A DNA stretch of 35,851 bases from Akkermansiaceae bacterium (GTDB taxonomy: Bacteria; Verrucomicrobiota; Verrucomicrobiia; Verrucomicrobiales; Akkermansiaceae), in assembly GCA_903826205.1 (NCBI GenBank), contig CAIKDP010000009.1:1-35851 (forward strand). Reading direction: 5' to 3'. Numbering within the stretch: the stretch's first letter is position 1; the number at the start of each line of letters is the position of its first letter. Under the pieces are notes generated by a model, which was not told the DNA's origin, did not search any database, and saw only the letters and a program-made list of their open reading frames with translations. The position numbers and the translations under genes are program-made. Positions 1,894 through 32,821 of the stretch are shown here, piece after piece.

Positions 1894-2105
1894 TTCTATC
1901 GATATTTTCAGTGGATTCAGGGGTTCTCAGTGTAACCAGTGGTTCTCCTTGGCCCTCATATGTTAGATTCTCTGCGTGTCATTTAAACCAAGGACTGGTC
2001 AGTAAGGTTAAACAAAGTTAAAATCATCCAATGAAGATTCATCCATGGTGCCGTCACCTGCCGGCTCAGGCAGTCCACCCTCATTCACAACCGCTCACGG
2101 CCATC

Positions 2106-4358
2106 ATGAAAATGACAGGTCTTGTGCTGGCGTTGTCGACCCCCATCCTGGCAGCCGACATCACCGGTGAGTTTGCCAAACCACCGCCAAAGTATCGTCC
2201 GACGCCGCTGTATTGGCTGAATGGCAAGATCACCAATGAAGTGATCGACGCCCAATTGACCAGCTTCCGCGACAAGGACGGCTATGGGAGTGTGGCCATC
2301 CTGCCTTTCACCGAATGGCATGAGCCCGAATTCATGGAGAAATACGCCCACCTCCTCGCCAAACTCGACGAGCTGGGCATGTGGGCGATCTTTTGTGACG
2401 ACCAGAACTTCCCCTCGGGAACGGCTGGCGGCGAAATCGGCAAGAACTATCCCGAGTTTTGTTCCCGCCAGATCAACAAGGCCGAACAGGATGAGACCGG
2501 ACCCAAGGACTATCAGGCGGATGTGCCCGCCGGTGCGCTGATGGGCTGCGTGGCGATGAATAACAACGACCATGCCCAGCGGATCGATATCACCCCGGGT
2601 GTGAGCAACGGCAAGCTCTCGTGGAAGATCCCGGCTGGCAATTGGAAAATCATGATGTTTGTCTCGCGCCGGGATCTTGCCATGAATCGGAAAGACCCCA
2701 ATGGCAACCTCGACTATCTCAACCCGGCGGCCGTCGATAAATGGATCAGCCTGACCTACCAACGGTTCTACGATAAGTTTCCCAAGCATTTCGGCACGAC
2801 GATCAAGAGCTCCTTTTACGATGACATCTCGCTCTATCAGGCCAGCCCCGACGTCTGGAACGGCAACGACCGCCGCTGCTGGACGGATGGATACAATGCC
2901 GAGTTTAAGAAGAAATTCGGCATGAGTCCGGTCGAGTTCTATCCGGCGATGTGGTATGACATCGGTCCGGCGACCGCGGCGGCCCGCAGCATGCTCTTCG
3001 GCCTGCGCGCGGAATTGCTCTCCGAGGTTTTTGTGAAGCGGGTCGCCGCGTGGTGCGCGGCGCACAAGATCGATGCCTCCGGCCATCCGGCCGGTGACTA
3101 CGAAGTTTCGCCGATGGGCTTCTCGGGCGACGCGATCAAGTTCTATCAACACGCGCAACGCCCGCTGCTCGACGTGATCGGCGCCTACGGCTCCAAGCGC
3201 GACGGCTACAAACTGTCGGGCTCTGCGGCGTTTCTTTACGACAAGCCGATTCTGCAGTGTGAGACCTACGGCGCTTTCGAGAGCTGGAAGGAAGCGAATT
3301 TCACCCCGGACTTGCTCTATCGCACCGCCATGGAACTTTATGTCCGGGGCATCAACCTGATCATCCCGCACGGCGTGTGGTATGCCCATCCCAATGTGCC
3401 AACGCCACCGGAAATTTCCTGGCGAAACCCGATTGTCGGCCCATCGCTGCCCGATTACAACACGTGGGCCGCGCGCTGCCAGCTCATCCTGCAAGGCGGC
3501 CGCCATGTTGCGGACATCGCGGTGCTCTATCCGATCACGGCGATTTATGCCGATTGTCATTTCGGCAATGAAGGGACGGACCCCGAATACCTCAACGTGG
3601 GCGAGCGGCTGACCCATACCATCCGGCGCGACTTCACCTTCATGCATCCCGAAGTGCTGGATGGAAAATGCACGGTCGATGCGACGAGCCACACGCTCGA
3701 ACTTGAAAACAAAGTGAACTATGAAAAGTACAAAGTCCTGATCCTGCCCGGCAAGCGCGAGCCCGGAGCGATCAATCTGTCGACGCTGCAGAAGGCCAAG
3801 GAGTTTTACGACCATGGCGGCACGGTCATCAGCACCGCCAGACTGCCGGTGAAGTCCGCCGAACTCGGCAAGGACGCGCCAGTCGCGAAACTGGTCCAGG
3901 ACATTTTCGGCCTAGATCCTGGCAAGCCGGGTCACCCTTATACCAAGAACAGCAACGCGGCCGGAGGCAAGGCCTATTTCGTGCCTAACATCGACGAGGG
4001 GCTTGAAGGCACCAGCCGGTTGGCCGCCGTCCTCAATGAAGCCGTGGGTGTATGGGACGTTCGATTCGAAGAAGACATCGCCATCAAGAGCGCCAAGGGC
4101 AAGCTGGCCTATATCCACAAGGTCCGGGACAACGCGGATTATTATTTCTTCGCCAACTCGAGCGACGACAGCATCAACACCTGGGTGCGGCTCAAGGGCA
4201 AGCTGCAACCGCAACTGTGGGACCCGCATACCGGCTCGATCGGTGCCGTGGCTTTTCAAAACCTCAAGCAAGACGGACAGGAGGTTACCCGCGTCCGTCT
4301 CACGCTGGGCGCCAATAAGTCGGTCTTCTTCAGGGCCCCAAGTCCGGCAACAAAATGA
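2106..4358 (+). CDS. Secreted GH106-like (alpha-L-rhamnosidase-type) glycosyl hydrolase
   Basis: The protein has 750 residues from the ATG at 2106. This start is preferred over 2031 because it places a short signal peptide (Lys followed by a hydrophobic stretch ending in LAA) at the N-terminus; 2031 would add 25 polar residues before it. The mature part opens with the pattern of the GH106-like superfamily: a YWLNG motif, a helix, then a VAILPF strand of a TIM barrel. Later segments resemble the glutamine-amidotransferase-like domain seen in these enzymes. An acidic candidate is the Glu in the QCETYG motif. It is shorter than classical GH106 (about 1,000 residues) and lacks a clear C-terminal sugar-binding domain. 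The substrate may be a rhamnose-containing polymer, which is inferred. A decayed PDZ-coding segment follows its stop. Confidence 0.72.
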   Translation: MKMTGLVLALSTPILAADITGEFAKPPPKYRPTPLYWLNGKITNEVIDAQLTSFRDKDGYGSVAILPFTEWHEPEFMEKYAHLLAKLDELGMWAIFCDDQNFPSGTAGGEIGKNYPEFCSRQINKAEQDETGPKDYQADVPAGALMGCVAMNNNDHAQRIDITPGVSNGKLSWKIPAGNWKIMMFVSRRDLAMNRKDPNGNLDYLNPAAVDKWISLTYQRFYDKFPKHFGTTIKSSFYDDISLYQASPDVWNGNDRRCWTDGYNAEFKKKFGMSPVEFYPAMWYDIGPATAAARSMLFGLRAELLSEVFVKRVAAWCAAHKIDASGHPAGDYEVSPMGFSGDAIKFYQHAQRPLLDVIGAYGSKRDGYKLSGSAAFLYDKPILQCETYGAFESWKEANFTPDLLYRTAMELYVRGINLIIPHGVWYAHPNVPTPPEISWRNPIVGPSLPDYNTWAARCQLILQGGRHVADIAVLYPITAIYADCHFGNEGTDPEYLNVGERLTHTIRRDFTFMHPEVLDGKCTVDATSHTLELENKVNYEKYKVLILPGKREPGAINLSTLQKAKEFYDHGGTVISTARLPVKSAELGKDAPVAKLVQDIFGLDPGKPGHPYTKNSNAAGGKAYFVPNIDEGLEGTSRLAAVLNEAVGVWDVRFEEDIAIKSAKGKLAYIHKVRDNADYYFFANSSDDSINTWVRLKGKLQPQLWDPHTGSIGAVAFQNLKQDGQEVTRVRLTLGANKSVFFRAPSPATK

Positions 4359-4540
4359 CAAGGCCTCCAATAGGACGATGTGATCATCTCCTGCAATGAT
4401 CAACCGGTGCGCACCGTGAACGACCTGGAAAAGCACCGCGCCGCAGCCGCCGGCAAGAAGTTGTCGATCACCCTCATCCGCAAACAAAAGCAAATGACCA
4501 TTGCATTACCAGAGGTTCAACAGAACGAAGAGACGATGTG
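4359..4540 (+). pseudogene. Decayed PDZ-domain coding remnant
   Basis: From 4380 the frame reads VIISCNDQPV and continues to LIRKQKQM, ending at TGA 4538-4540. This is the second half of a PDZ domain and closely resembles the PDZ domain inside the downstream fucosidase (DNA identical over GTGATCATCTCCTGCAAT). Upstream, the matching part is broken: an in-frame TAG lies at 4371-4373, and compared with the fucosidase copy about 4 bases are missing between AAGGCC and GACGAT. The preceding hydrolase ends in SPATK, which itself resembles the start of a PDZ loop. The simplest reading is that the hydrolase once carried a C-terminal PDZ domain, lost by frameshift. Confidence 0.7.
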
Positions 4541-4570
4541 AGCACCAAGCCATGGAATAGCCCGAACGGT

Positions 4571-4762
4571 GGGGAGCGCCGGCGTCCCGCCGGCAGGATT
4601 CGGCATCCTGCCGCAATCCATTGCGCCTGTGTGGACAATATGCAAGCCACTCATTCCACGGAAATGCATCGGGTTGCTAACTCCCAGTTCTCTCCACGCG
4701 CTTTCCATCCGCGTGCATTCGGCAGGATGCCGAACGCTGCCGCCAGGATGGCGGCGCTCCCC
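4571..4762. repeat. MITE-like element with 42-bp terminal inverted repeats
   Basis: The segment 4571-4612 and the reverse complement of 4721-4762 match over about 42 bases with a few differences. Each arm also contains its own small hairpins, for example GCCGGC (4578-4583) with GCCGGC (4589-4594), and CGGCAGGAT (4591-4599) with ATCCTGCCG (4605-4613). No transposase is encoded. It sits between the decayed PDZ remnant and the fucosidase start. A spurious minus-strand ORF runs through it. Its structure suggests a non-autonomous mobile repeat or a REP/BIME-type element. Confidence 0.75.
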
Positions 4763-4801
4763 GTCAAATTCCAAATAACGATCCAACCTACCAGACACAA
4801 A

Positions 4802-7174
4802 ATGAAACACATCATCAAGAGTAGCCTATGTCTTGCTATCTGCTTAACCACGCGCACTATTGTCTATGCTGCGGAGCCGACGGCTCCGGCACCGGCCAAA
4901 TACGAGCCGACGGTGGACTCGCTCAAACAGGCGGAGATCCCCGAGTGGTTCATCGACGGCAAGCTCGGCATCTTCATGCATTGGGGGCCGGAGAGCATTC
5001 CCGGCGTGGCCTCCACTTGGTATGCGCGCTGGATGTATGAGGAGGGCAGCGAGGGATATAAGTATCATTGCGCCACCTACGGACATCCCTCGAAGTTCGG
5101 CTACAAGGATCTCTGCAAGCTGTTCAAGGCGGAGAAATTCGACCAGGCCCAGGCCGACCGCTTGGTCAAGCTCTATAAGGCGGGCGGCGCGCGCTATGTG
5201 GTGCCAGTGGCGTCGCACCATGACAACTTCGACATGTGGGATTCCAAATTCCAACCGCGCTGGAATTCGATGGCCACCGCCGGCAAGGATATTTGCGGGA
5301 TGTGGCAAAAGGCCACCGTGGCCAACGGCCTGCATTTCGGCGTGGCCTCGCACGTCGCACGCACCTACCGCTGGCTGCAGACCTCGCACGGGGCCGACAA
5401 GACCGGCCCGTTGGCGGGCGTGGCGTATGACGGCCAGGACCCGGCATTCCAGGACCTCTATGGCGTGCCATGGAAGAGCAGCGATCCGGGATACGAAGGA
5501 CCGCAGGATGTCGGCCCGCCTGAGTTCGAGCAGAACTTCGAGGACCGCATGAAGGACCTGATAGATCGCTATCATCCCGACCTCTACTACACCGACGGCG
5601 GCCCGCCCTTCAAGGACAAGGGCTACAAGATCGTCTCCCATCTCTACAACCAAAGCCTCCAGGAACATGCCGGCAAATTGCAGGCCGTGGCCAACTTCAA
5701 GGGCGGCTGTGCCATCGGTGCCGAAAACTTCGAATTCGAATTTCCCGCCACCCTGCAGAAGAATTTCTGGCAGACCGACAAAACCACGGGTGGTGAGTGG
5801 TATTGGCTGCGCGACCGCCGCAAGGATTACAAGAAGGGCTTTGAAATTATCCATACCCTGATCGATGTGGTTAGCAAAAACGGCAACCTACTGCTGAATG
5901 TCCCTCTAACCGGTGAAGGCGAGCTGGAAGAGGAAGTGATCTCCATGTTCAAGGATATGGAACATGACTTCAACCTGATCGGCGAAGCCATCTTCTCCAC
6001 CCGCACCTGGGAGGCGTTCGGCGAGGGTTATAAAAACTTCAGCGGCATTTCCAGCGGCTCGGCCGCCGATATCCGCTTCACCCGCAACAAGGCGAACACC
6101 ATCCTCTATGTCACGACGCTCGGCTGGCCCGGCGACGCCGCGGTGGTCAAAATCAAGACCATGGCCAAATCCCGCATCGACCTGAAGAGTTTGCAAAGCG
6201 CGATGATGTTAGGATCCCCGGACAAGCTCAAATTCACCCAGGACGGCGAGTCACTCCAGATCTCATTGCCGCCCAAGGCGCCCTATCCGTGCAGCGCCTA
6301 TTCGCTCAAGCTGACCTTCTCCGGGCAGATTCCCGCGCTGATGCCTGCGGCCAGGTTGCTGTGGCAGGCGCAGGCCCGTGAGATTGCCGGCGCCAAAGAG
6401 CGCGCCGCCTACGGACTGACTGCCGACGGCGGCATTCTGTTACTCGACGTGCCCGCCGGCAGTGATGCCGCCAAGGCCGGCTTGAGAAAGGACGACGTGA
6501 TCATCTCCTGCAATGGCAAGGCGGTGAACGCGAGCACTGACATCACCGCCATGGCCGATCAGGCCGCCGGCGGCAAGTTGGCTCTAACCATCAATCGGCA
6601 GCAGAAGATGCTGCCGATTGATCTGACCCATTACACTTACGTGACAAGAGAGAACCTGTGGAAGCCCGAGTTCAAGACGGTCCCGCTCAGTGATGCATCG
6701 GCGGTATTGCCGGCAAAAGCATCTGTGGGTGGAGCGGCGTTGACCATAGGTGCTGTTGGGCTTCTGGTGGATGGAAAAATCGAGTGCAACCGCGGGCCGA
6801 CCTTTGCCAGCGGGGTTGACACCGGCAAGCTCAGGTTCGATCTGGGTGCAGTCAAAAGCATCGCCCGGGTCAATACCTACGCGTCCGGCAATACGCATGC
6901 CAGGCAGTCGTTCACTCTCTACGGCAGCACTTCCACCACGGACCCGGGTTGGAACGTCGCCGACACCCAGGTTTTCACACCGGTCATCACGGTGGATGAC
7001 CGTGGTGAGCGGACCGAACATGAGGCCACCAGCATCCGCCGCAGCGCGGACCAACCGCTGGGAGCCTACCGCTGGCTGGTCTGGGCGGCCACCCCCACCA
7101 TGGGTGAGATCGGCGGCCAGAACACGACGTTCGAGGAAATGCAGGTCATCCCGGCAAAGGGGGCGGCTAAGTGA
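4802..7174 (+). CDS. Secreted GH29 alpha-L-fucosidase with PDZ and discoidin-like domains
   Basis: The protein has 790 residues from ATG 4802; the longer frame from 4538 only reads through the repeat element. A signal peptide ends near VYAAEP. The GH29 catalytic domain spans about residues 30-520: an FMHWGP motif, a conserved SHHDNFDMW segment, and YYTDGG, whose Asp265 is the likely nucleophile. Residues about 538-610 form a PDZ domain with the GSDAAKAG and DDVIISCNGK motifs. Residues about 630-785 look like an F5/8 (discoidin) carbohydrate-binding domain. GH29 enzymes release L-fucose by a retaining mechanism. The fused PDZ is unusual and may tether the enzyme to a partner or substrate at the cell surface (inference). 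The stop overlaps the possible GTG start (7171) of the next, broken ORF. Confidence 0.85.
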   Translation: MKHIIKSSLCLAICLTTRTIVYAAEPTAPAPAKYEPTVDSLKQAEIPEWFIDGKLGIFMHWGPESIPGVASTWYARWMYEEGSEGYKYHCATYGHPSKFGYKDLCKLFKAEKFDQAQADRLVKLYKAGGARYVVPVASHHDNFDMWDSKFQPRWNSMATAGKDICGMWQKATVANGLHFGVASHVARTYRWLQTSHGADKTGPLAGVAYDGQDPAFQDLYGVPWKSSDPGYEGPQDVGPPEFEQNFEDRMKDLIDRYHPDLYYTDGGPPFKDKGYKIVSHLYNQSLQEHAGKLQAVANFKGGCAIGAENFEFEFPATLQKNFWQTDKTTGGEWYWLRDRRKDYKKGFEIIHTLIDVVSKNGNLLLNVPLTGEGELEEEVISMFKDMEHDFNLIGEAIFSTRTWEAFGEGYKNFSGISSGSAADIRFTRNKANTILYVTTLGWPGDAAVVKIKTMAKSRIDLKSLQSAMMLGSPDKLKFTQDGESLQISLPPKAPYPCSAYSLKLTFSGQIPALMPAARLLWQAQAREIAGAKERAAYGLTADGGILLLDVPAGSDAAKAGLRKDDVIISCNGKAVNASTDITAMADQAAGGKLALTINRQQKMLPIDLTHYTYVTRENLWKPEFKTVPLSDASAVLPAKASVGGAALTIGAVGLLVDGKIECNRGPTFASGVDTGKLRFDLGAVKSIARVNTYASGNTHARQSFTLYGSTSTTDPGWNVADTQVFTPVITVDDRGERTEHEATSIRRSADQPLGAYRWLVWAATPTMGEIGGQNTTFEEMQVIPAKGAAK

Positions 7175-19421: not shown

Positions 19422-19475
19422 CGCGGCGGCAGGGATATCGCTTGCACAAACGGGAAATGAACCTATGGTGTGGCT

Positions 19476-20684
19476 ATGTCTGAAAAACACCCCACACTGC
19501 CTGATTATTTGCAGGAAGAGATTTTGTTGCATCCCGAGAGGCGCCGGTTTCCAGAGTTTGATCTGGCGCGTCTGCTGAACCAGGTGTTTGCACCCACGCA
19601 GGGCTGCCGTGTGTGCATCCTGATTGATTTTGTGGATCCGGAGGCAATGATCACGGACTTCGAATTTCTTCATCACTCAGGCTTTCCGGTTCAAAAGCGC
19701 GCCCATGAGCATTTTTACACCGGCCTCCACGAGGGTGTGATGCAGCAACTCGGCATGCGCGGCGGAGATCTCTTCGCCTACAAAATCACCGGCGGATCCA
19801 ATCTCGATCTCGACGATGACGTGTGGGACAGCCTCGGCCATCTGCTGTCGTTCGACCGCGATATCTATCCGAACTACGACATCATCCTGTGCATCTCCAC
19901 CTTCTCGGCAACCGCACCATTGACGGCCAAAGCCAAACAATTCGGCTTCCGCGGCGCGACTTTGCATGGCCTCAATGACACCATCCTGCACTCCGGCCTG
20001 GCGGTCGACTACGACGAGGTTTCGCGCGATGCGGAAAAATTGCGGCGCGCGCTCACCCGGGCCGATGAGGTGGAAATCGATTTTGAATTGGAAGACGGCC
20101 GGATTCTCACCGCGTGGTTAGGTTTGGGTGGGCAGGAGGCGCAAAAATCCCACGGCCTGTGCCGCGGCACCACGCCGGACATCGCCAATCTGCCGGCCGG
20201 TGAGGTGTATTTTGTGCCCACCGATGCGCGCGGCCAGTTTCCCATGAAATATGAGGATGGCACTCTCGGGGTGTTGGATGTCAAGGACCGCGCCATTCAT
20301 CGCGCCCGCCTGCTCGTCGGCAATCAAGCCACCATCGATGCCCATAACGCCCGCTTGCAGGACGATCCCATGACCGGCACCCTCGGCGAGCTCGGGTTCG
20401 GCACCCAGGTGCTGCCCGTCTCCTACGCCGATATCCAGGATGAGAAAGTGTTGGGCACCTGCCACATGGCGACCGGTCGCGACGATCATCTTGGCGGCGA
20501 CATTGTGCCAGGCATGTTCAAGCGCCATGAAAACTCGACCCATGACGACATTTTGTTTGCCCCGCACAAGACCCCGAATTTCAACCTCCGGCAAGTGCGC
20601 ATGAGGCGCGGCGAGCAACGCGAGATCCTGATCGAGAATTTCCGCCCGTCACGCTACATGATGGACGCGCTGACCGCTGACTGA
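19476..20684 (+). CDS. M29-like metallo-aminopeptidase (aminopeptidase T family)
   Basis: The protein has 402 residues from ATG 19476; a GTG two codons earlier is an alternative start. The family is recognised by metal-ligand positions: Glu243 in NLPAGEVYF, Glu305 in LGELGFGT, His330 in GTCHMATG, and His356 and Asp358 in STHDDILF. In known M29 enzymes a Tyr seven residues after the first His is catalytic; here that place is Asp, in TGRDDHLGGD, so activity may differ. There is no signal peptide; it is cytoplasmic. It converges on the microcompartment operon with 4 bp between the stop codons. A peptidase role is expected from the family but not certain. Confidence 0.75.
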   Translation: MSEKHPTLPDYLQEEILLHPERRRFPEFDLARLLNQVFAPTQGCRVCILIDFVDPEAMITDFEFLHHSGFPVQKRAHEHFYTGLHEGVMQQLGMRGGDLFAYKITGGSNLDLDDDVWDSLGHLLSFDRDIYPNYDIILCISTFSATAPLTAKAKQFGFRGATLHGLNDTILHSGLAVDYDEVSRDAEKLRRALTRADEVEIDFELEDGRILTAWLGLGGQEAQKSHGLCRGTTPDIANLPAGEVYFVPTDARGQFPMKYEDGTLGVLDVKDRAIHRARLLVGNQATIDAHNARLQDDPMTGTLGELGFGTQVLPVSYADIQDEKVLGTCHMATGRDDHLGGDIVPGMFKRHENSTHDDILFAPHKTPNFNLRQVRMRRGEQREILIENFRPSRYMMDALTAD

Positions 20685-20688
20685 GGTA

Positions 20689-21240
20689 TCAGATGAGTTC
20701 GCGATAGACATCCGGGTGGGGCCGCGGAATGACCACCGCATTGACCAGCAGGCCGGCCTGCGCAATCACCTCGCGGCCGGCATCGATGGCGGCTTGCACC
20801 GAGGACACATCGCCGGTCAGGGTGGCGAACGCCTTGCCGCCCAGCGCCATCGCCAGCCGGATCTCCAGCAAGGTGACGTTGGCCGCCTTGACCGCTGTGT
20901 CCGCCGCCTCGATCAGGTTGGCAACGTTGAATGATTCGAGGATGCCCAGGGCCCCGGTCGGCTCACCCGGTTGCGTGCGGCACAGCGCGGCAAAGACGTC
21001 GGGGTGGACCTTGGGAATGACGAACTGGTCGATCAGGCAGCCCTTGGCAGCCGTGCAGCCGGCATGCACGGCGGCGCCGACAGCCGCCACATCGCCACCG
21101 ATCATGACCATGTATTTGCCGGAGCAAATCGACCGCGACAGAAGCAGTTTTACGTTAGATGACTTGAGCATGGTGTCGGCGACAAGAAAGCCGGCGGCGA
21201 TGCTGGTGAGTTCGATGAGTCCAATGGCGCGATCGTTCAT
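20689..21240 (-). CDS. pduT: PduT-like tandem-domain BMC shell protein (BMC-T)
   Basis: The protein has 183 residues made of two BMC domains: 1-90 (AIGLIELTSIA, GKYMVMIGGDV) and 95-183 (ALGILESFNVA, GGKAFATLTGDV), each ending in a conserved Ile-Pro-x-x-His-Pro segment (VIPKVHP, VIPRPHP). Tandem-BMC proteins form trimeric hexagonal tiles of bacterial microcompartment shells. PduT binds a [4Fe-4S] cluster at its central pore through Cys108; the aligned position here is Leu109 (NVANLIEAAD), so that ligand is missing, although Cys39 (ICSGK), Cys62 and Cys68 occur in the first domain. It overlaps the PduS-like gene by 4 bp (ATGA), so the two are translationally coupled. Confidence 0.92.
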   Translation of the reverse strand: MNDRAIGLIELTSIAAGFLVADTMLKSSNVKLLLSRSICSGKYMVMIGGDVAAVGAAVHAGCTAAKGCLIDQFVIPKVHPDVFAALCRTQPGEPTGALGILESFNVANLIEAADTAVKAANVTLLEIRLAMALGGKAFATLTGDVSSVQAAIDAGREVIAQAGLLVNAVVIPRPHPDVYRELI

Positions 21241-22556
21241 GGGAGGTAATGGAGAATAATGGCATGTTCGGTGACGGCTTCGACGGTGGCGGCAAAGGGG
21301 GCGTGCAGGACCGCGCCGAGGGCATTGGGCGCGGGTTCGGCCAGCACTTGGCCAGTGGCCACCGATTGGCCGGCCTCAACCTTGGCAATGGCCGGGGCGC
21401 CGGCGTGTTGTTTGAGCGGCAGGACGGCGCGCTCGGTGGTTAGAACGCCTTCCCGCAGCGGTGCCGGATGGTCGTAGCGCTCAATGCCGAGGCGGCGCAT
21501 CAAACTCTTGATAGGGACCCGGCGCCCGTCGCGCAGCGGATGGGCCTCGACCGTGGCGGCACCGGTCCATTTCCAGCCAGTGGTGCGCAGGACGGCTTTC
21601 GAGTTGTCGCAGGCTTCTTTCGGATAGAGAGCTTCCGGGCAGGCGTAGAGGGTGCACAGGCCGCAGGAACAACACAGGCCCGCCCATTCGCTGAAACGGT
21701 CCGCGCCGGTGGCGGTGAAGCCCAGCGAGCGCATCACCTGGTGCGGTTCCACCGCGTAGCCTAACAAAAAGCGCGGGCAGAACTCGGTGCAATAGCGGCA
21801 CTGGTCGCAGGCGGACTTGCCGATGGCGGCCTGTTGTTGCGCGGGCTTGAGCTTGCGTTCCACCACAGGGTGGTCGCGTGGCAGGACGATCACGCCGGCA
21901 GTGGTTTTGGTGACCGGGCGATCGAGATCGGCGGTGGTTTCACCCATCATCATGCCGCCGATGGCGAGCACCGGATGATCGACTGTGGCGCCACCCGCGG
22001 CGGCGATGCACTCGCGCAGCGAAATGCCGAGCGGAACCACGAAGGTTGCCGGTTCGCGCACCGCGCCGGCGATGGTGAGGGTCTTGCAGATGACCGGTCG
22101 GCCTTCGGCGGCGGCGGCGATGTTGGCCAGGGTTTCCACATTCTGCACCACCACACCCACGTGGATCGGCAGCCCGGTGGGCGGAATCAGGCGGCCGGTC
22201 ACCGAGTACACCAAATCGTATTCGTCGCCGGCGGGATAGTAGTCATCTAGCAAGTGGACCCGTGCCCGGGTGCCAACGCAGGCGGCTTGGGCGGCAGCCA
22301 CCGCGAGCTTTTTCTTGGCCTTGATGGCGATGACCGCGTCGTTGGCTCCCACGGCATCGGCGCATAGCAGGATGCCGCGCACCACTTCGGCGGCGCGGTG
22401 CTGGAGCACGGCGGCGTCCTTGTGGAGCAGCGGTTCGCATTCCGCGCCATTGGCTATCACGGTATCGGCCTTGGCGGCCAATTTCACATGGGCGGGAAAG
22501 CCGCCGCCGCCGGCGCCGACGACGCCGGCATTGCGCACTTGGGTGACGAGTGACAT
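21237..22556 (-). CDS. pduS: PduS-like microcompartment flavin/Fe-S oxidoreductase
   Basis: The protein has 439 residues, close to the 450 of PduS. The N-terminus carries the RnfC/PduS nucleotide/FMN-binding motif GAGGGGFPAHVKL (14-26). An SLBB region follows. Two [4Fe-4S] motifs are seen: Cys250, 253, 256, 260 and Cys295, 298, 301, 306, the latter with the ACPE ending typical of the family. The C-terminus is a barrel-sandwich domain, as in RnfC. In propanediol microcompartments PduS reduces cobalamin and interacts with PduT. No cobalamin-dependent diol dehydratase is seen nearby. It is first in a two-gene operon with the shell protein. Confidence 0.93.
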   Translation of the reverse strand: MSLVTQVRNAGVVGAGGGGFPAHVKLAAKADTVIANGAECEPLLHKDAAVLQHRAAEVVRGILLCADAVGANDAVIAIKAKKKLAVAAAQAACVGTRARVHLLDDYYPAGDEYDLVYSVTGRLIPPTGLPIHVGVVVQNVETLANIAAAAEGRPVICKTLTIAGAVREPATFVVPLGISLRECIAAAGGATVDHPVLAIGGMMMGETTADLDRPVTKTTAGVIVLPRDHPVVERKLKPAQQQAAIGKSACDQCRYCTEFCPRFLLGYAVEPHQVMRSLGFTATGADRFSEWAGLCCSCGLCTLYACPEALYPKEACDNSKAVLRTTGWKWTGAATVEAHPLRDGRRVPIKSLMRRLGIERYDHPAPLREGVLTTERAVLPLKQHAGAPAIAKVEAGQSVATGQVLAEPAPNALGAVLHAPFAATVEAVTEHAIILHYLP

Positions 22557-25044: not shown

Positions 25045-27153
25045 TCATTTCGCGCCGGCCCGCTGGACTGACTGTAGGGTCACAGGCCCGAGCAAGCCTG
25101 ACGCCGGCTGGTTGTCAGCCATCCAGTCCCTCGGGATCCGGGTACGTGTCCGGCGCAAGCCCTCCGGCAGAGTCTTGTCGCCAGTGAGCCGGTTGGGCCA
25201 CAAATTGACCACCTCGATTTCCAGCGTGTTGTCACCGGGCCTGACGGTGCGGGTGATGTCCACCCGCCATGGCGGGCACCACAGCACGCCAAGGTCATGG
25301 CCGTTGAGCATGACGCGGGCGCTCGCTTTCACTGCGCCCAGATCCAGCCACAGACGGGGCGCTTGTGGCGATTTGAGGTTTGAGATTTCAGATTTGAGAT
25401 CCGGGTGGGCGGGATACTTGAAAATTTTCCGGTAGGTGGCGGTGCCGCTGAAATTTTTCACCGCCGGCTCGGGACGTTTGGTCCAGTCCTCCAACTTGTC
25501 GAACTCCATCAAGCCCGTGGCTTGCGCTTCGCTGAGGCCATCGGTCGGATAGAACCACTGCGGATCGAACTGCACCGTCCATGGCCCCGTAAGCTCTTGC
25601 AGCGGATTGAAGGTGGGAAAATTATCGGGTAAGGCCGTGTGGCCGGCTTGGAGGTCCGTCCCTGACGAAGATTTCCGGAACACCACAAACACCGCGCCAT
25701 AAGGCGCCAACTCCAGCGGCACGGAGCTGCGTTCATCCATGGTTTCGAACTGCGGAAGTTCCCGTTGCTCGCCGCTCACGGGGTCCCACAGTTCCGGGCG
25801 CCCGGTGGCACGGAACGTGCAGGTGGCGCGGAGGGTGGCGGCGCGCCGGTTCGTCACGAAGTAAATCTCTGTGTCGCCGCTGCGGCGATGAATGAAATCC
25901 ACCAGCGCATTTTCGGCGGCGGTGGCAAAGGCGAAATCCGGCGGCACGCTGGCATTCATCAGGATCTCGCGAATGCCCATGCCGCACACAACCCGTCCCT
26001 TGCCGTATGGGCCGTCCAGTGACGGACTGGTTGTCCTGGTTCCCCATACCCTGTCGGCAATGACCTTGAGTGCGGATTCGCTCCCGGGGTAGCCGGTTAG
26101 ACCGGGCGTGCGCTGCGGCTTCGGGCCGATCACCGTGGCGCCGGCGGCTATCAGTTCCTCGAGCTTGGCGGCCACCTGCAGGGGCATGACCGGCCGGTCC
26201 GGCAACACCAGAACCCGGTAACTCATGCCGTCGGGCAGCACGATCCGCCCGTCCCTAACGGAAATCCGCGTGAGCAGAATCTCCGAATTGCAGACATCGT
26301 AGTCATAGCCGAATCCGCGCGACGGATCGACGTGCTTGGGCGCAACGAAGTTAGGCGCCTCATCGCCGTTATAATATAACACGTCGGCCACAAAGCGCCC
26401 CTGTTGCAGCATGTGTGAGCAGCGCGCCAGGTATTGCAGGAATGGCGCGGCAGCTTGATTCCACCAGGTAACGTTAGGGTTGAAATGGGTGCCTGCCGCG
26501 AACGCCTTGCCGGGCATGCCCGCGTCAGGGCCGGAGGTGGCCGAGCCGTGGATGGTCAGCGCATTGATGCCCTCGCAAAAGGCGATGTTGGCGTACAGCC
26601 GCAAATCGGCCGGTGCCACGCCCCAGTGTGAGCGCGGGCCGATGCTGGTGAACGACTCGGACGCCACCAGACGTTTGCCGTACAAGTGAGCGGCGCTTGC
26701 GGCCTGTTTGGCATTGACGTTCTGTGCCGCCTCATCCCAGCCCGCCAGGGTGACGGCGTGATGGTTGGCCGGCACCCACTGATTCTCTTTCCAGTGCGTG
26801 CTTTCCCAGAATTCCGCGACTGGCGTGTCCATGCGGCCCTGGTTCATCAGCCCGTCGTTGCATAGCAGGCGCGGATGATGCTGGCCCCCGGCTTCCGCCC
26901 GCACCCACATGCCATTGGCGTGTGCCAGCTCCGCCCAGCGGCCATAGTGACCATCCGCCACGCAATCGGCGATGGTCCGCCGTACGTCAGTTAGAAAACG
27001 GTCCGTGACTTGCACATTATCCACGATTTCTCCCGCCATCGCGGCCAGATAGCGGGCCGGATCGTAACCGCGCCGGTGGCGGAACTCTTCGGGCAGCCGC
27101 GGCGTCCAGGAATACATGCCGTCGATTTCAACGTTGTCCTCGTGAGGGGGCAA
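25045..27153 (-). CDS. GH106-type alpha-L-rhamnosidase-like hydrolase, 3' part (frameshifted)
   Basis: This is the C-terminal two thirds of a hydrolase whose N-terminus lies in another frame upstream (26991-28136). The TTG at 27153 is not a real start; homologous sequence continues in this frame to about 27171. It contains EDNVEIDGMYSW, then candidate catalytic Glu residues in WVRAEAGGQHHP and VASESFTSIG, matching the two-glutamate arrangement of GH106. Further on are an amidotransferase-like domain (YRVLVLPDRPVMP) and a C-terminal jelly-roll sugar-binding domain with ARVMLNGHDLGVLWCPPW. With the 5' part the product would be about 1,030 residues, the normal size for the family. Confidence 0.8.
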   Translation of the reverse strand: MPPHEDNVEIDGMYSWTPRLPEEFRHRRGYDPARYLAAMAGEIVDNVQVTDRFLTDVRRTIADCVADGHYGRWAELAHANGMWVRAEAGGQHHPRLLCNDGLMNQGRMDTPVAEFWESTHWKENQWVPANHHAVTLAGWDEAAQNVNAKQAASAAHLYGKRLVASESFTSIGPRSHWGVAPADLRLYANIAFCEGINALTIHGSATSGPDAGMPGKAFAAGTHFNPNVTWWNQAAAPFLQYLARCSHMLQQGRFVADVLYYNGDEAPNFVAPKHVDPSRGFGYDYDVCNSEILLTRISVRDGRIVLPDGMSYRVLVLPDRPVMPLQVAAKLEELIAAGATVIGPKPQRTPGLTGYPGSESALKVIADRVWGTRTTSPSLDGPYGKGRVVCGMGIREILMNASVPPDFAFATAAENALVDFIHRRSGDTEIYFVTNRRAATLRATCTFRATGRPELWDPVSGEQRELPQFETMDERSSVPLELAPYGAVFVVFRKSSSGTDLQAGHTALPDNFPTFNPLQELTGPWTVQFDPQWFYPTDGLSEAQATGLMEFDKLEDWTKRPEPAVKNFSGTATYRKIFKYPAHPDLKSEISNLKSPQAPRLWLDLGAVKASARVMLNGHDLGVLWCPPWRVDITRTVRPGDNTLEIEVVNLWPNRLTGDKTLPEGLRRTRTRIPRDWMADNQPASGLLGPVTLQSVQRAGAK

Positions 27154-28136
27154 TCCGAGGGCAGCGCGGACAAGTCATCGCGCACAAAGCTGACCTGGTC
27201 GGCCAGTCGGGTGGTGGTCACGCCGAATGGATGAGTCAGTGCGCGTTTGGCGGCGAGCCTTGCGGCACGCTCCACCTCGGCCCGGGTCCCCAGCGCGAAG
27301 TCGCGGACCGCTTGTTTGTTAGGTACGGTGATGCGGAACCAGCGGGCCGTGGTGGCTGGGACTGCTTCATAGCCCAGCACCCACTGCGGTCCGGGCAACT
27401 CGGTTACCCGCTTGAAAGTGACGCCGTCATCCGAGGCGTCGATGATGATGCGTCCTGTGACATCGATCCAGATCCAATCGACCGTGTGGGGCGCTCCGAA
27501 ATCCACGAGCAGCCAAGGTTGGCGGGCGGCTCCGGAATTCCAAACCGTGTTGTAATTTCCATCCAGGAGGTTGGGCAACTGTCCGGGATTAATGTTAGAA
27601 GTAATGACAGGGCTTGGCTTTGGTGCTCCTTCAGGAATCAGAAAGGCGTGTGCGGCCACCTCGGCATAGAGCTTTCCCCGGCCTGTTGGATCCGCAAGCT
27701 TGCCGGAGAATTTTAGCGGCCCCTTGATAATCGTTGTGGAGCTGACAACCATCCAGCTGGAATTTTCCGGCGTGATCCATGGTCCGCCAGACGGCCAGCC
27801 CGCGCAGATATTCACCCCCATTTTCAAGTTGAGCCGGTCCGCTTCCAGCGCCGTATGGCGGAGCAACGCCCGCCACGCGTCACTCATATAGGGCACCGCC
27901 GGATTTCCGCACATATCTGACACGGGAAACAGCAGCACGCCTCCCACGCCTTTTGATTTCAGTTCCTCCATGTGCCGGCTGATATCCGCCGGCGTGATCT
28001 TGTCGAACCACCACATGAACACCCACGGCTTTGCCGCATCCGGAGGCGTCACAAATTCCGCAGGCAGATCCGCGGCCGCGCGTGTCATGCCGGGCCACAG
28101 GCAAAGTGTCAGGCCCGCCGTCAGGAGTCGCTTCAT
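26991..28136 (-). CDS. GH106-type hydrolase, 5' part with signal peptide (frameshifted)
   Basis: The start is ATG at 28136, giving the signal peptide MKRLLTAGLTLCLW with cleavage near TRAAA; a longer frame to 28289 overlaps the upstream barrel gene. The mature N-terminus (PWVFMWWFDKITPADISRH, then GVGGVLLFPVSD) is the first part of the GH106 TIM barrel. Next comes an inserted discoidin-like segment (LLVDFGAPHTVDWIW). True sequence ends at VSFVRDD near 27174; the residues beyond are out of frame until 26991. Adding one base to the AA at 27172-27173 (TTT instead of TT on the coding strand) restores DDFVRAALGLPPHEDNVEI and joins the 3' part. It lies 110 bp after the BBP7 gene on the same strand. 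Confidence 0.8.
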   Translation of the reverse strand: MKRLLTAGLTLCLWPGMTRAAADLPAEFVTPPDAAKPWVFMWWFDKITPADISRHMEELKSKGVGGVLLFPVSDMCGNPAVPYMSDAWRALLRHTALEADRLNLKMGVNICAGWPSGGPWITPENSSWMVVSSTTIIKGPLKFSGKLADPTGRGKLYAEVAAHAFLIPEGAPKPSPVITSNINPGQLPNLLDGNYNTVWNSGAARQPWLLVDFGAPHTVDWIWIDVTGRIIIDASDDGVTFKRVTELPGPQWVLGYEAVPATTARWFRITVPNKQAVRDFALGTRAEVERAARLAAKRALTHPFGVTTTRLADQVSFVRDDLSALPSDCPLTRTTLKSTACIPGRRGCPKSSATGAVTIRPAIWPRWREKSWIMCKSRTVF

Positions 28137-28246
28137 CAGTGCGTGCGCGGCTGTCATCAACAGGGATGTGAGATGAACTTGGGTCCGCGCCGGGCTCCCT
28201 TGTGGCGTGGCCATGCGGTCACGCCACAAGGCGGTCCCATGGGCCG

Positions 28247-29407
28247 TCAGAAGCGGAATGAAGCGCCGACTTGAAGCCCGTGCACCCAATAGCTGGTGTC
28301 ATTGCTAGAAGCCGCCGGTCGCACCGGTCCGCTCAGTGTGCCGCCCAGCAGCTGTGAACCGTTGACCCCGCGGTCAATCTGGTCACCCGCCAGCACGACA
28401 TTGCTCCAGTACATCACGCTGTAACCGAGTGTCAGGCTGCAAGACGGCGTCACCTGATAGCCAAGTGTGACCCCGACTTCAGGCATCCAGGCGAAATTAT
28501 TGCTGGAACGGTTGCCGGAATTGGTGGGTTGGGCATAAACCCCGCCCGGGTAGGTGGTGCTGCTGCCTGCTGGAGGGGTCATGCTCGAAGAGCCGTGAAT
28601 TGAGACACTCTGGTGCATGACGCCCAATCCGACCTTGCCCATGGCGCTGATCGTCCAGGGGCCTTGTACGTATTCGAGCATCATTCCCAGCGGGATGCCA
28701 TGAAAATCATTATGGGTGTCGAACTTGTCATCAAAGGTCATGCGGGTGCCTGTTGGATAGAGCCCGCCGATTGAGACCGAGTTGCTGTGCATCGATAGAT
28801 CGTCCTCGATGCGGGTGTATTGGTAGCCCCCGATGAAGTCGACGCTCAGGTTGGACTCATGCATCCAGTTGTATCTCAACATCAAATCGCCGCCGAAGAT
28901 GTTGCTGTTGGCCTCATCGGTCATGGTGCCGCTGCGTACTCCGGGCGAAGCAACGATCAGGGCGTCCTCGGCATGGACGGCTAAATCCGTGTTATAGAAA
29001 GGCCGGGCTAACAGAGGGCTGCCACTGGCGTCGGAACTCGTGGTGAAGCGTTGGGTTTCTTCGCCCAAGTGGAAAAACCTGCCGAACAAGCCCACCTTTT
29101 GTTGGTTGTCGAGCCACCCGCCGAGGGTGATGCGGAAGGCTGGATTCCAGTCGTCGTTGACCCGTTCGTTGCCGAACAGCACGCTCGGGGAGCTGCTCAT
29201 GACGCCATTGGTGCCAGGCGGGCTGCTCGTCACCAGCGGCGGCAGTTCCGATCCCTTGCGGGTCATGTAGAGGAACTCCAGCCCCCCCCAGAATCTGGGT
29301 GACGCCAGCGGGGATGTTGCCGGTGGTTCTGCTTGTCCGCACACGGCGGTTTGGAGGGTGCTCAACGTGGCACCAAGGGTGATCAATGCTGCGACGGGTG
29401 GTCTCAT
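28247..29407 (-). CDS. BBP7-family outer-membrane beta-barrel protein
   Basis: The protein has 386 residues with a signal peptide (LITLGATLSTLQTAVCGQA). The start of the mature part, RFWGGLEFLYMTRKG, and the spacing of the strands match the BBP7 (PF07585) barrels of Planctomycetes and Verrucomicrobia. The C-terminal strand GLQVGASFRF ends in Phe. The protein is Gly-, Ser- and Thr-rich between strands. The function of this family is not established; a porin or surface role is assumed. It precedes the large GH106-type hydrolase on the same strand and probably forms an operon with it. Confidence 0.85.
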   Translation of the reverse strand: MRPPVAALITLGATLSTLQTAVCGQAEPPATSPLASPRFWGGLEFLYMTRKGSELPPLVTSSPPGTNGVMSSSPSVLFGNERVNDDWNPAFRITLGGWLDNQQKVGLFGRFFHLGEETQRFTTSSDASGSPLLARPFYNTDLAVHAEDALIVASPGVRSGTMTDEANSNIFGGDLMLRYNWMHESNLSVDFIGGYQYTRIEDDLSMHSNSVSIGGLYPTGTRMTFDDKFDTHNDFHGIPLGMMLEYVQGPWTISAMGKVGLGVMHQSVSIHGSSSMTPPAGSSTTYPGGVYAQPTNSGNRSSNNFAWMPEVGVTLGYQVTPSCSLTLGYSVMYWSNVVLAGDQIDRGVNGSQLLGGTLSGPVRPAASSNDTSYWVHGLQVGASFRF

Positions 29408-30121: not shown

Positions 30122-30259
30122 GGCCCCTCATTAGGATAACACGATTGTCTTTGGTAATCTTCCGGCGGATTTCTCCGCAAGAAAAATGTAAGGCGGAAGC
30201 ACATAATTTTCCCGGCGATGAAAGCCAACAGGAAGTCATGCCGTAGTCGTAGCCCGGTG

Positions 30260-32821
30260 ATGATCCACAATCGAAATCCTCTGTTGTCCCGCTGGCTCGG
30301 GGTGTTGTCAATCAGCCTTGGTGCCTGGCAGGGCACGTGCGCCGCGGAGCCAGCCACGCCGCAGGACAAGGTTGGTGAGCGGGAGGGTCTGGTGGCCAGC
30401 GGGGACTTGCACATGGCGGGGCCGGCACGGCGCCCGGAACACGGGTTGCCGTTAGGCAACGGCCGCATGGGATCCATGGTTTGGACGACTCCCGGGGCGA
30501 TCCATTTGCAGATCAACCGTCCCGATGTCTACGCCAATGACAGGGACACCACGAGCTTTCAGGACCCGCATGAAAACTATTGCGGCGGTTGTGCCTTTGT
30601 GGATATCGAATTCGGCGCGGAGGCTGACATCTTCAGCGGCGCGGCCACCCGCCAGGACCTGTCGATCTACAAGGGTCTGGCGACTCTATCAGGGGATCGC
30701 GTCACCGCGCGCCTGCTGGCCCATCCTGACAAGGACGTCATCGCCATCGAAATCGACGATGCGCGGGAACAATCGGAGGTTGCGCGCGGCGTGCTGCGGA
30801 TGTTGCGAACCCCGGGTGTTAGAAAAGCCGGCCACAGCGCGACGTCGGAGTTGCTTGAGAGAGACGGGAGCATCGTGCTGACGCAGGAGTTCAAGGAAGG
30901 GAAGTTCGTCTGCCGCACGGCCGTGGCGGTCTCATGCGCCGGCAAGCCATCCAGCGTCGGCCCGCGGGATGAGACGGGCACGCGCTTGAGCGTCGGTCCG
31001 CAAGCGCCGGGCAAGGGGAAATTGACATTTTACGTGGCAAGTGCCGCCAGTTTCGATCCGGACCGGGATGTGGCTTCCGCCGCGCTGCGACTCTGCGCGG
31101 AAGCCGGGCAGGAGGGTTTTGCACAACTGGCCGGGGAGAGCGCCAGTTGGTGGCACCGCTTCTGGCAGGGGACCTACGTGAAGCTTTCGGGCACCAACGA
31201 CGCGGCGGGAGCCGCCGCCGCCATGGTCCAGGCCAATTACTACTACTACCTCTATCTGATGGCTGCCAGCAGCCGCGGGCCGTTGCCGCCCAAGTTCAAC
31301 GGCATGCTCTGGAACACGCGCGGCGACTTTCGCCGGTGGGGGGACATGCACTGGTGGCACAACCTGAGTTGCTTCTATGACGGGCTGCCGGCGACCGGCA
31401 AGTGGGAGTTGATGGATCCGGTGTATGACATGTATTCAGGCATGCTGCCAAGTTGTGAGCGGGCGGCCAGGGATGTCTGGGGCAGCGCCGGGGTGTGGAT
31501 TCCGGAAACGGTGCACTTCAATGGTCCGCCCACACTGCCAACGGAGATCGCCACCGAACTGCGCGAGTTCCTGCTGTGCCGCAAGCCAGTGGACGAACTC
31601 TCCTCCTCGTTCAAGACCTTTGCCTCCCTGCGCAACCCGCTCCATCCCTGCTGGAACTACATGGCCTTCGACTGCTGGAAGAGCGGCCAATTCGAATTCC
31701 GCACCCAGGGCCACGGACCGTTCAGCTATACCGCACATATCCTGTCGAGCGGCACCAAGATCGCGCAATTGTTCTGGAGCCGCTACGCATACACGCGCGA
31801 CACGGCATGGCTGCGAACCCGAGCCTATCCGGTCATCCGCGGCACCGCCGAATTCTATCGGAATTTCCCCAACCTGAAATTGGCGGCCGACGGCAAATAT
31901 CATATCCATAACGTCAACAACCACGAGCCGACGTGGAACGCGCAGGATGCCATCGGCGAGTTGGGCGCCATGTATGCCATCCTGCCCGTGGCGATCCGTG
32001 CCGCGGAAATCCTTGACGTCGATGCCGACCTGCGGGAAAAATGGAGTGATTTGTTAGCCAAGCTCGCGCCGTTGCCGACGACCGACCACCCGTTGGCGAT
32101 TCATCCCCGCCGGGAGGGGGAAAGCGCCAAGTGGGACGTGGGTCTCCAACCGGTGGCCAAGCCGGGCCGCGGCGGGATTGAACCGCTCATTTTCTATGGC
32201 CTCTACACTTGTGAGACCGCCGATCCGCGGATGACCGCGCTTGCCGCAGCCACCTACGGGCCGGCCCCGCGCAGTTACGCTCCGGGAGAGGTTGGTCCTT
32301 TGGGTTTGCATGCGCTCATGGCGGCCCACATGGGCCGCGGCGAGGATCTGGGCGCGGCGCTGGTCTCGCAATTGACCAACGTGCTGATCTATCCGAACCG
32401 GCTGTGCGATGTGGAGGGCGACTATCAGGAGTTTCCCGGCACCACCGCGGAACATGAGGGACGGGCGGTGCAGGGACTCTTGCGCGGCTTGCTGCTGGCG
32501 GCGCCACCGGCACCGGGACAGGATCCGGTGGTGCGCCTGTTTGGCGCGCTGCCCGCCGCCTGGGATGGGGAGTTTCAATTGCTGGCCCCGGGCGGCTTTG
32601 CCATTTCCGCGGTGCGCACGCGGGGCGTGGTGCAAGGGGTCACGGTGGAATCACGGCTCGGCGAAACCCTGCGCCTGCGCAACCCGTGGCCCGCCTCAAG
32701 CGTCAAGGTGTCGCGCTTCGCCCGGCCGTCTCTAACCATTCAAGGCGACCTGCTCAGCATCCCCACCGCCAGCAATGAGGCCGTTGTTCTAACGGAAGAG
32801 CAGTCGCCGGTGCAGCCGTAG
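30260..32821 (+). CDS. Secreted GH95-like (alpha/alpha)6 glycoside hydrolase
   Basis: The protein has 853 residues from ATG 30260, giving a signal peptide (LLSRWLGVLSISLGAW, cleavage after CAA). The N-terminal sandwich domain has GLPLGNGRMGSMVW, the GH95 signature, followed by an INRPDVYANDRD segment where GH95 enzymes have their NEDTLW motif. The middle (about residues 330-650) is a helical barrel with NNHEPTWNAQDAIGE in the catalytic region. A short C-terminal sheet domain follows (LFGALPAAWDGEF). GH95 acts on alpha-L-fucosides or alpha-L-galactosides; this one belongs to a divergent branch, so the substrate is open. It fits with the other deoxy-sugar glycosidases of the window. Confidence 0.7.
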   Translation: MIHNRNPLLSRWLGVLSISLGAWQGTCAAEPATPQDKVGEREGLVASGDLHMAGPARRPEHGLPLGNGRMGSMVWTTPGAIHLQINRPDVYANDRDTTSFQDPHENYCGGCAFVDIEFGAEADIFSGAATRQDLSIYKGLATLSGDRVTARLLAHPDKDVIAIEIDDAREQSEVARGVLRMLRTPGVRKAGHSATSELLERDGSIVLTQEFKEGKFVCRTAVAVSCAGKPSSVGPRDETGTRLSVGPQAPGKGKLTFYVASAASFDPDRDVASAALRLCAEAGQEGFAQLAGESASWWHRFWQGTYVKLSGTNDAAGAAAAMVQANYYYYLYLMAASSRGPLPPKFNGMLWNTRGDFRRWGDMHWWHNLSCFYDGLPATGKWELMDPVYDMYSGMLPSCERAARDVWGSAGVWIPETVHFNGPPTLPTEIATELREFLLCRKPVDELSSSFKTFASLRNPLHPCWNYMAFDCWKSGQFEFRTQGHGPFSYTAHILSSGTKIAQLFWSRYAYTRDTAWLRTRAYPVIRGTAEFYRNFPNLKLAADGKYHIHNVNNHEPTWNAQDAIGELGAMYAILPVAIRAAEILDVDADLREKWSDLLAKLAPLPTTDHPLAIHPRREGESAKWDVGLQPVAKPGRGGIEPLIFYGLYTCETADPRMTALAAATYGPAPRSYAPGEVGPLGLHALMAAHMGRGEDLGAALVSQLTNVLIYPNRLCDVEGDYQEFPGTTAEHEGRAVQGLLRGLLLAAPPAPGQDPVVRLFGALPAAWDGEFQLLAPGGFAISAVRTRGVVQGVTVESRLGETLRLRNPWPASSVKVSRFARPSLTIQGDLLSIPTASNEAVVLTEEQSPVQP

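Follow-up and report, generated by a model that had tools for sequence, protein, structure and literature searches.

A gene pair for a PduS-like oxidoreductase and a PduT-like shell protein, on a contig where no other microcompartment shell gene is found, raises the question of whether such a pair acts on its own or serves an organelle encoded elsewhere in the genome, and whether its shell protein has kept the means to hold an Fe-S cluster in the pore. The window (the whole stretch of DNA that was analyzed, 35,851 nucleotides) is the entire contig C9 of a genome of 5.57 Mb in 469 contigs (97.7% complete). The features of the pair are as follows, the coordinates of codons and cysteine motifs being computed from the ORF starts:

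21237..22556, minus strand: PduS-like flavin/Fe-S oxidoreductase, 439 aa, with Complex1_51K, SLBB and 4Fe-4S dicluster domains and a C-terminal RnfC_N-type barrel
21639..21809, minus strand: the two tetracysteine motifs of PduS, C250/253/256/260 and C295(296)/298/301/306
21237..21240, minus strand: ATGA overlap of the pduS stop and the BMC-T start, 4 bp
20689..21240, minus strand: PduT-like tandem BMC-T(s) shell protein, 183 aa, with two PF00936 domains and a predicted fold that matches PduT 3pac
21124..21126, minus strand: codon of Cys39, the pore-loop cysteine of C-S-G-K-Y (equivalent to PduT Cys38)
20914..20916, minus strand: codon of Leu109, aligned with PduT Cys108

Both frames are complete at these coordinates, as the first-pass annotation of this DNA had recognized, and their 4-bp ATGA overlap suggests translational coupling of pduS and BMC-T. 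The two genes are not chance ORFs, since their Pfam matches reach E-values of 7e-48 (BMC) and 4e-45 (Complex1_51K). Genome-wide profile searches revealed no other PF00936 or PF03319 gene on contig C9, and a Pfam scan of 18 window proteins found neither an aldehyde dehydrogenase nor a dehydratase, in agreement with the earlier observation that hexameric and pentameric shell genes as well as these enzymes are missing nearby.

The PduS-like protein displays, by Pfam, the domain order PF01512, PF10531, PF13534 and RnfC_N (PF13375), the same four domains that are given for PduS in a section of PMC6325248. It is 86–88% identical to its nearest relatives, and both tetracysteine motifs are invariant in all nine aligned sequences (window included). 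FMN binding and NADH oxidation are predicted for this protein.

The shell protein combines two unpermuted PF00936 domains in tandem with the PduT fold: its predicted model (pLDDT 90) matches 3pac with a Z-score of 27.6 over 180 residues, and its sequence aligns gap-free both to PduT 3pac and to the Desulfitobacterium protein 3nwg. Its identity to the nearest relatives is 92–94%. It scores 121.8 bits against the NCBIfam equivalog TIGR02526 (eut_PduT), below the cut-off of 250.3 bits, and is therefore named PduT-like rather than a member of the equivalog.

The first-pass annotation had placed the PduT pore cluster on Cys108 and, finding leucine at the equivalent position, had described a changed pore without the Fe-S cysteine. 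The ungapped alignment agrees that Leu109 faces PduT Cys108; the error arose from taking Cys108 to be the residue that binds the cluster. Part of PMC6325248 places the conserved pore cysteine of PduT homologues within the motif C-P/S/A-G-K/R/S-Y/F, and this motif, together with PDB entry 3n79 ("PduT C38S Mutant"), points to Cys38. At the aligned place, the structures read C-P-G-K-F (3pac) and S-P-G-K-F (3n79), and the window BMC-T reads C39-S-G-K-Y, with Cys39 opposite Cys38, the residue changed in 3n79. The idea of a missing cysteine was to be dropped if any cysteine aligned with the pore cluster position; Cys39 does so, and we rejected that idea, as all 94 aligned BMC-T rows, which comprise 84 distinct sequences, carry C39-S-G-K. 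Position 109 is Leu or Met in 93 of these rows, with a gap in the remaining one. In the model, Cys39 is located in the beta2-beta3 loop, between strands 31–37 and 43–50, and Leu109 lies within helix 106–119. In the BMC fold, the loop that bears Cys39 lines the pore. Desulfitobacterium 3nwg likewise lacks a cysteine at "108", yet keeps C-P-G-K-Y. Judged by its sequence, the window BMC-T is a protein that retains the cysteine holding the pore Fe-S cluster in its relatives, and it would probably bind a [4Fe-4S] cluster.

The genome-wide search for BMC-H and BMC-P genes proposed at first pass located three of each on another contig, C439, and the BMC genes of this genome are confined to C439 and C9. 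C439 also encodes PduL, AckA (acetate kinase), an acylating aldehyde dehydrogenase and a class II aldolase, as well as a divergent DeoR regulator followed by rhamnulokinase. The class II aldolase signature, the DeoR regulator and the acetate kinase that mark PVM loci are thus all present, and the gene set is that of the PVM organelle for L-fucose/L-rhamnose as treated in part of PMC4207490. No lactate/malate dehydrogenase (the predicted PVM alcohol dehydrogenase) was found among 11 C439 proteins scanned against Pfam, and no B12-dependent enzyme was found among the C439 proteins scanned. Diol dehydratase PF02286 gave no match in the genome, nor in the control genomes. The glycyl radical family PF01228 matched once, on contig C389 (which carries no BMC genes), in a trans-4-hydroxy-L-proline dehydratase (1167 bits, cut-off 1100); a BMC-associated glycyl radical enzyme, as required for a GRM, was not found in the genome. 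The PduO-type adenosyltransferase family PF01923 is present, and the iron alcohol dehydrogenase family PF00465 is represented by a sub-cut-off match only.

Two further observations concern the PVM operon itself. A GxxExxY (PD-(D/E)XK superfamily) gene lies between BMC-P1 and the aldehyde dehydrogenase (L009:8715-9116, on C439); the same arrangement occurs in L047, L059, L065, L070 and L075 and was not found at this place in the other mapped PVM loci. In most of the loci L009, L057-L075 and L161-L168, the stretch upstream of PduL carries a conserved T-rich motif around TTTCTGTGTTTTTTTGGGAATTTTTGG, followed by a TTGAC box; this motif may be the operator to which the divergent DeoR regulator binds.

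With regard to accepted definitions, the shell genes at the locus of the pair are contiguous and form an insufficient set (BMC-T alone on C9, no BMC-P), and a non-satellite BMC locus exists elsewhere in the genome (C439). The strict 2014 form of a satellite locus admits no other BMC-related gene; pduS is BMC-related, and therefore the locus is "satellite-like" by the definition given in part of PMC4207490 and "satellite" by that in part of PMC8217296.

The distribution of the pair was assessed in 145 genomes, the source genome included. A full BMC-T is encoded in 14 of them, and all 14 have separate BMC-H matches, compared with 34 of the 131 others (chance of this co-occurrence 4e-8 for independent draws, which related genomes are not). 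PduS was found in 13 of the 145, i.e., in the BMC-T set minus G054, where 99 bases of the contig remain after the BMC-T gene. The pair is accessory, since 34 of 48 BMC-bearing genomes manage without it. It comes immediately after the PVM aldolase, on the same strand, in G057 and G066, follows aldolase plus rhamnulokinase in G046, and lies divergently at 3.7 kb from PduL in G051; in the other ten of the 14 genomes, the operon is not seen beside the pair, which in several cases is near a contig end. Among 20 PVM loci from relatives without the pair, 18 contain the full set of ten core genes, identically ordered, and the other two (L064, L076) are only partly shown. The PVM operon of the source genome is mostly 75–95% identical to those of pair-less relatives, and the pair is therefore an add-on.

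A wider view was obtained from named genomes scanned with the PduS alignment, of which the best 80 of at least 531 relatives were analyzed. By title, these 80 comprise 68 Verrucomicrobiota, three Acidobacteriota, two Latescibacterota, one Syntrophobacterales and six without a phylum, the nearest being Akkermansiaceae MAGs. The first-pass suggestion to look for the same gene pair in relatives was borne out, as BMC-T adjoins PduS in 80 of these best 80 loci. Of the 80 loci, 24 contain two or more BMC core genes, the nearest of them no farther than 3.1 kb away; another 24 have an isolated pair, with a margin of 6 kb or more on either side; and 32 are cut too short by contig ends for a verdict. 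Of the 24 operon-adjacent loci, L139 is not PVM, and L109, L143 and L153 represent G057, G066 and G046 again. For the 56 isolated or contig-limited loci, 50 genomes were searched, the other six (L077-L081, L086) being relatives in the 145-genome set; BMC-P was found in 48 of the 50 (47 over the cut-off, the 48th with a sub-cut-off piece only) and was not found in G533 and G549. In a phylum sample of 387 genomes (source genome included), PduS is present in seven and BMC-P in 65, and all seven fall within the 65.

These data bear on the two readings that the first-pass annotation had left side by side. A stand-alone electron conduit was rejected: PVM genes are present on C439, and BMC-H or BMC-P accompanies the pair in nearly all genomes searched (in 14 of 14 BMC-T genomes out of 145 and in 7 of 7 PduS genomes out of 387, respectively). 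A satellite of a microcompartment encoded elsewhere is strongly supported by the PVM-type locus on C439 and by those relatives whose pair is in or beside the operon. In G241, whose genome is a single contig, 1 Mb separates the pair (at 2.64 Mb) from the PVM operon (at 1.60 Mb), and thus the satellite placement there is not an assembly artifact. A PduS tree of 84 rows (a quick tree with SH-aLRT support only), of which 52 carry an adjacent/isolated label, requires nine changes of this label, at least six of them forced by well-supported branches, which suggests repeated transfers of the module between the operon and a satellite site.

The same pair is seen in Acidobacteriota (L137, L145, L146) and Latescibacterota (L154, L156), in genomes with three BMC-P matches, which are in tandem in G550, G556 and G557; outside Verrucomicrobiota, the pair may serve other BMC types too. 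In one MAG (L045:314-2044 and L143, the same contig), pduS runs into BMC-T in a single 584-aa frame that lacks the PduS end, reflecting a fusion, a deletion or an assembly fault.

The surroundings of the pair on contig C9 include four loci for glycosidases, listed here for context:

2031..4358, plus strand: GH106 alpha-L-rhamnosidase
4538..7174, plus strand: alpha-L-fucosidase (PF01120) with a PDZ domain
25045..28289, minus strand: GH106 alpha-L-rhamnosidase in two overlapping ORFs in different frames
30218..32821, plus strand: GH95-like glycosidase (fucosidase family)

The fucosidase, the GH95-like glycosidase and the two GH106 rhamnosidases are located 2.5 to 18 kb from the pair and would release sugars that are degraded by the PVM organelle. 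In L108 and L141, a GH106 match starts within 90 bp after BMC-T, and clustering of ORFs around the pair yielded a GH106 cluster in four loci (window included), the other clusters consisting of BMC operon genes and apparent opposite-strand shadow ORFs. The gene recG is convergent to the pair in the source genome, G054 and G035, at distances of 1.4 to 6.3 kb. The split GH106 at 25045-28289 is a possible frameshift, with an F5/8 type C domain in its first piece. A 404-aa protein encoded between recG and the pair (19470-20684) gave no Pfam or NCBIfam match at E 0.001.

The pair can be compared with several known systems. With PduS/PduT of PDU and GRM organelles it shares the PduS domain order, gene adjacency, the pore-cysteine motif and the BMC-T fold; it differs in that its genome has no BMC-type glycyl radical enzyme and no PF02286 match (the controls likewise), that its BMC-T falls below the TIGR02526 cut-off, and that it is satellite to a PVM organelle. 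GRM5 has both an aldolase and PduS/PduT in common with this genome (the pair is reported for 57 of 57 GRM5 loci in part of PMC6325248) but employs a 1,2-propanediol dehydratase glycyl radical enzyme, whereas the sole PF01228 match here is the hydroxyproline enzyme. With known PVM loci, C439 shares the aldolase signature, aldehyde dehydrogenase, PduL, AckA, DeoR, BMC-H and three BMC-P, and what is added in this genome is BMC-T plus PduS. Functional metabolosomes without BMC-T are cited in part of PMC4207490 (the 2014 survey), whose reference 25 is the PVM study; our data suggest that PVM shells can carry BMC-T after all. Among single proteins, the best sequence match is the Desulfitobacterium hafniense BMC-T (3nwg, E 1e-48), from which the window protein differs by Ser for Pro after the pore cysteine and by its phylum. 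The Haliangium BMC-T HO-5812, engineered to bind [4Fe-4S] (5dii), has the same fold (Z 21.4), its cluster site being engineered and not natural. Given the start offset of the alignment, Cys39 would fall on HO-5812 residue 55, which we take to be the engineered cluster site.

Overall, we consider the pair, with a probability of about 0.72, to be a redox module in a satellite position that serves the PVM-type (L-fucose/L-rhamnose) microcompartment of an Akkermansiaceae-like verrucomicrobium. In the mechanism that we propose, a BMC-T trimer would sit in the PVM shell and hold in its pore a [4Fe-4S] cluster ligated by three Cys39 residues, and NADH would be made in the lumen by the aldehyde dehydrogenase. 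PduS would dock on BMC-T and oxidize this NADH, its electrons passing from FMN via the two PduS clusters to the pore cluster and on to a presumed cytosolic acceptor, most plausibly in this outward direction. A potential of +99 mV for the PduT cluster and an interaction of PduS with PduT are reported in part of PMC6325248. Lactaldehyde could then be oxidized without spending an equal share on its reduction to 1,2-propanediol, to which part of it is reduced in the published PVM scheme (PMC6620236, in part).

The same genes could mainly alter the permeability of the shell, PduS being a partner without net electron export, and a role in tuning shell permeability is indeed proposed for satellite shell genes in general in part of PMC8217296. 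The accessory character of the pair (14 of 48 BMC-bearing genomes) would fit such a role; we nevertheless regard it as unlikely, since the redox parts are kept together, with the pore motif in every aligned BMC-T row, both PduS tetracysteine motifs invariant, and BMC-T beside PduS in all of the best 80 of at least 531 relatives. Nonfunctional remains of an older organelle, or mere passengers, are a reading to which we assign hardly any probability: the separation of the pair from the contig of the BMC operon and the presence of a short helicase gene and the frame-split GH106 among its neighbors could be taken as signs of decay, but both frames are intact and full-length, the proteins are close to those of their nearest relatives, the cysteines are invariant, and the position convergent to recG recurs in G054 and G035.

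That PduS is a corrin (cobalamin) reductase for B12 recycling, as in PDU organelles, where it acts with PduO in B12 cofactor regeneration (PMC6325248, in part), appears very unlikely. PF01923 is available in this genome, yet this family is found in all 14 genomes that have the pair and in 32 of the 34 BMC-bearing genomes that lack it (46 of 48 in total), and therefore does not track the pair; moreover, C439 offers no B12-dependent enzyme among the proteins scanned, and PF02286 is unmatched, as it also is in the controls. Another conceivable role, PduS as a replacement for a missing iron alcohol dehydrogenase, was unsupported: strong PF00465 matches (E < 1e-38) were obtained for 3 of the 14 genomes that carry the pair and for 7 of the 34 BMC-bearing genomes that lack it, which is no clean inverse pattern.

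Regulation was approached through a 28-bp promoter motif learned on 25 of 32 PVM upstream stretches (L042, L043, L058, L069, L074, L160 and L165 left out). The motif is absent upstream of the window pduS (score -18 vs. a median of -12 for the controls), and so the promoter motif provides no evidence of co-regulation of this pair with the PVM operon. Among the upstream stretches of isolated or contig-limited pairs, two of nine exceed the 95th percentile of the controls (5.3), those of G017 and G025 with scores of 17.9 and 8.8, respectively; the 99th percentile is 11.8 over 118 upstream stretches, the pduS stretches of G017 and G025 among them.

Satellite loci and 285 PVM loci are described in part of PMC8217296, and its main text contains neither "PduS" nor "PduT"; verrucomicrobial PVM loci with BMC-H and BMC-P are described in part of PMC8857213, where "PduS" does not occur. 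Supplements aside, no published PduS or Fe-S BMC-T associated with PVM organelles was found, and an earlier report is possible. As a broader proposal, which we put forward tentatively and at somewhat less than even odds, a widespread verrucomicrobial PVM subtype has gained a trans-shell electron exporter: with no B12 or glycyl radical enzyme in the organelle, PduS/BMC-T would be a purely NADH-oxidizing exit, turning the split of lactaldehyde into lactate and 1,2-propanediol into a net oxidation with cytosolic or respiratory acceptors, and the module would repeatedly move between operon and satellite positions. PduS/PduT are linked to B12 recycling in PDU and to possible glycyl-radical activation in GRM (PMC6325248, in part). 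PVM gene content includes neither a B12 enzyme nor a glycyl radical enzyme, and thus, free of these two roles, the pair provides a natural test of PduS/PduT electron export through the shell. A further implication concerns redox balance within the organelle, which some of the Verrucomicrobiota, as degraders of polysaccharides rich in fucose and rhamnose, may achieve in this way.
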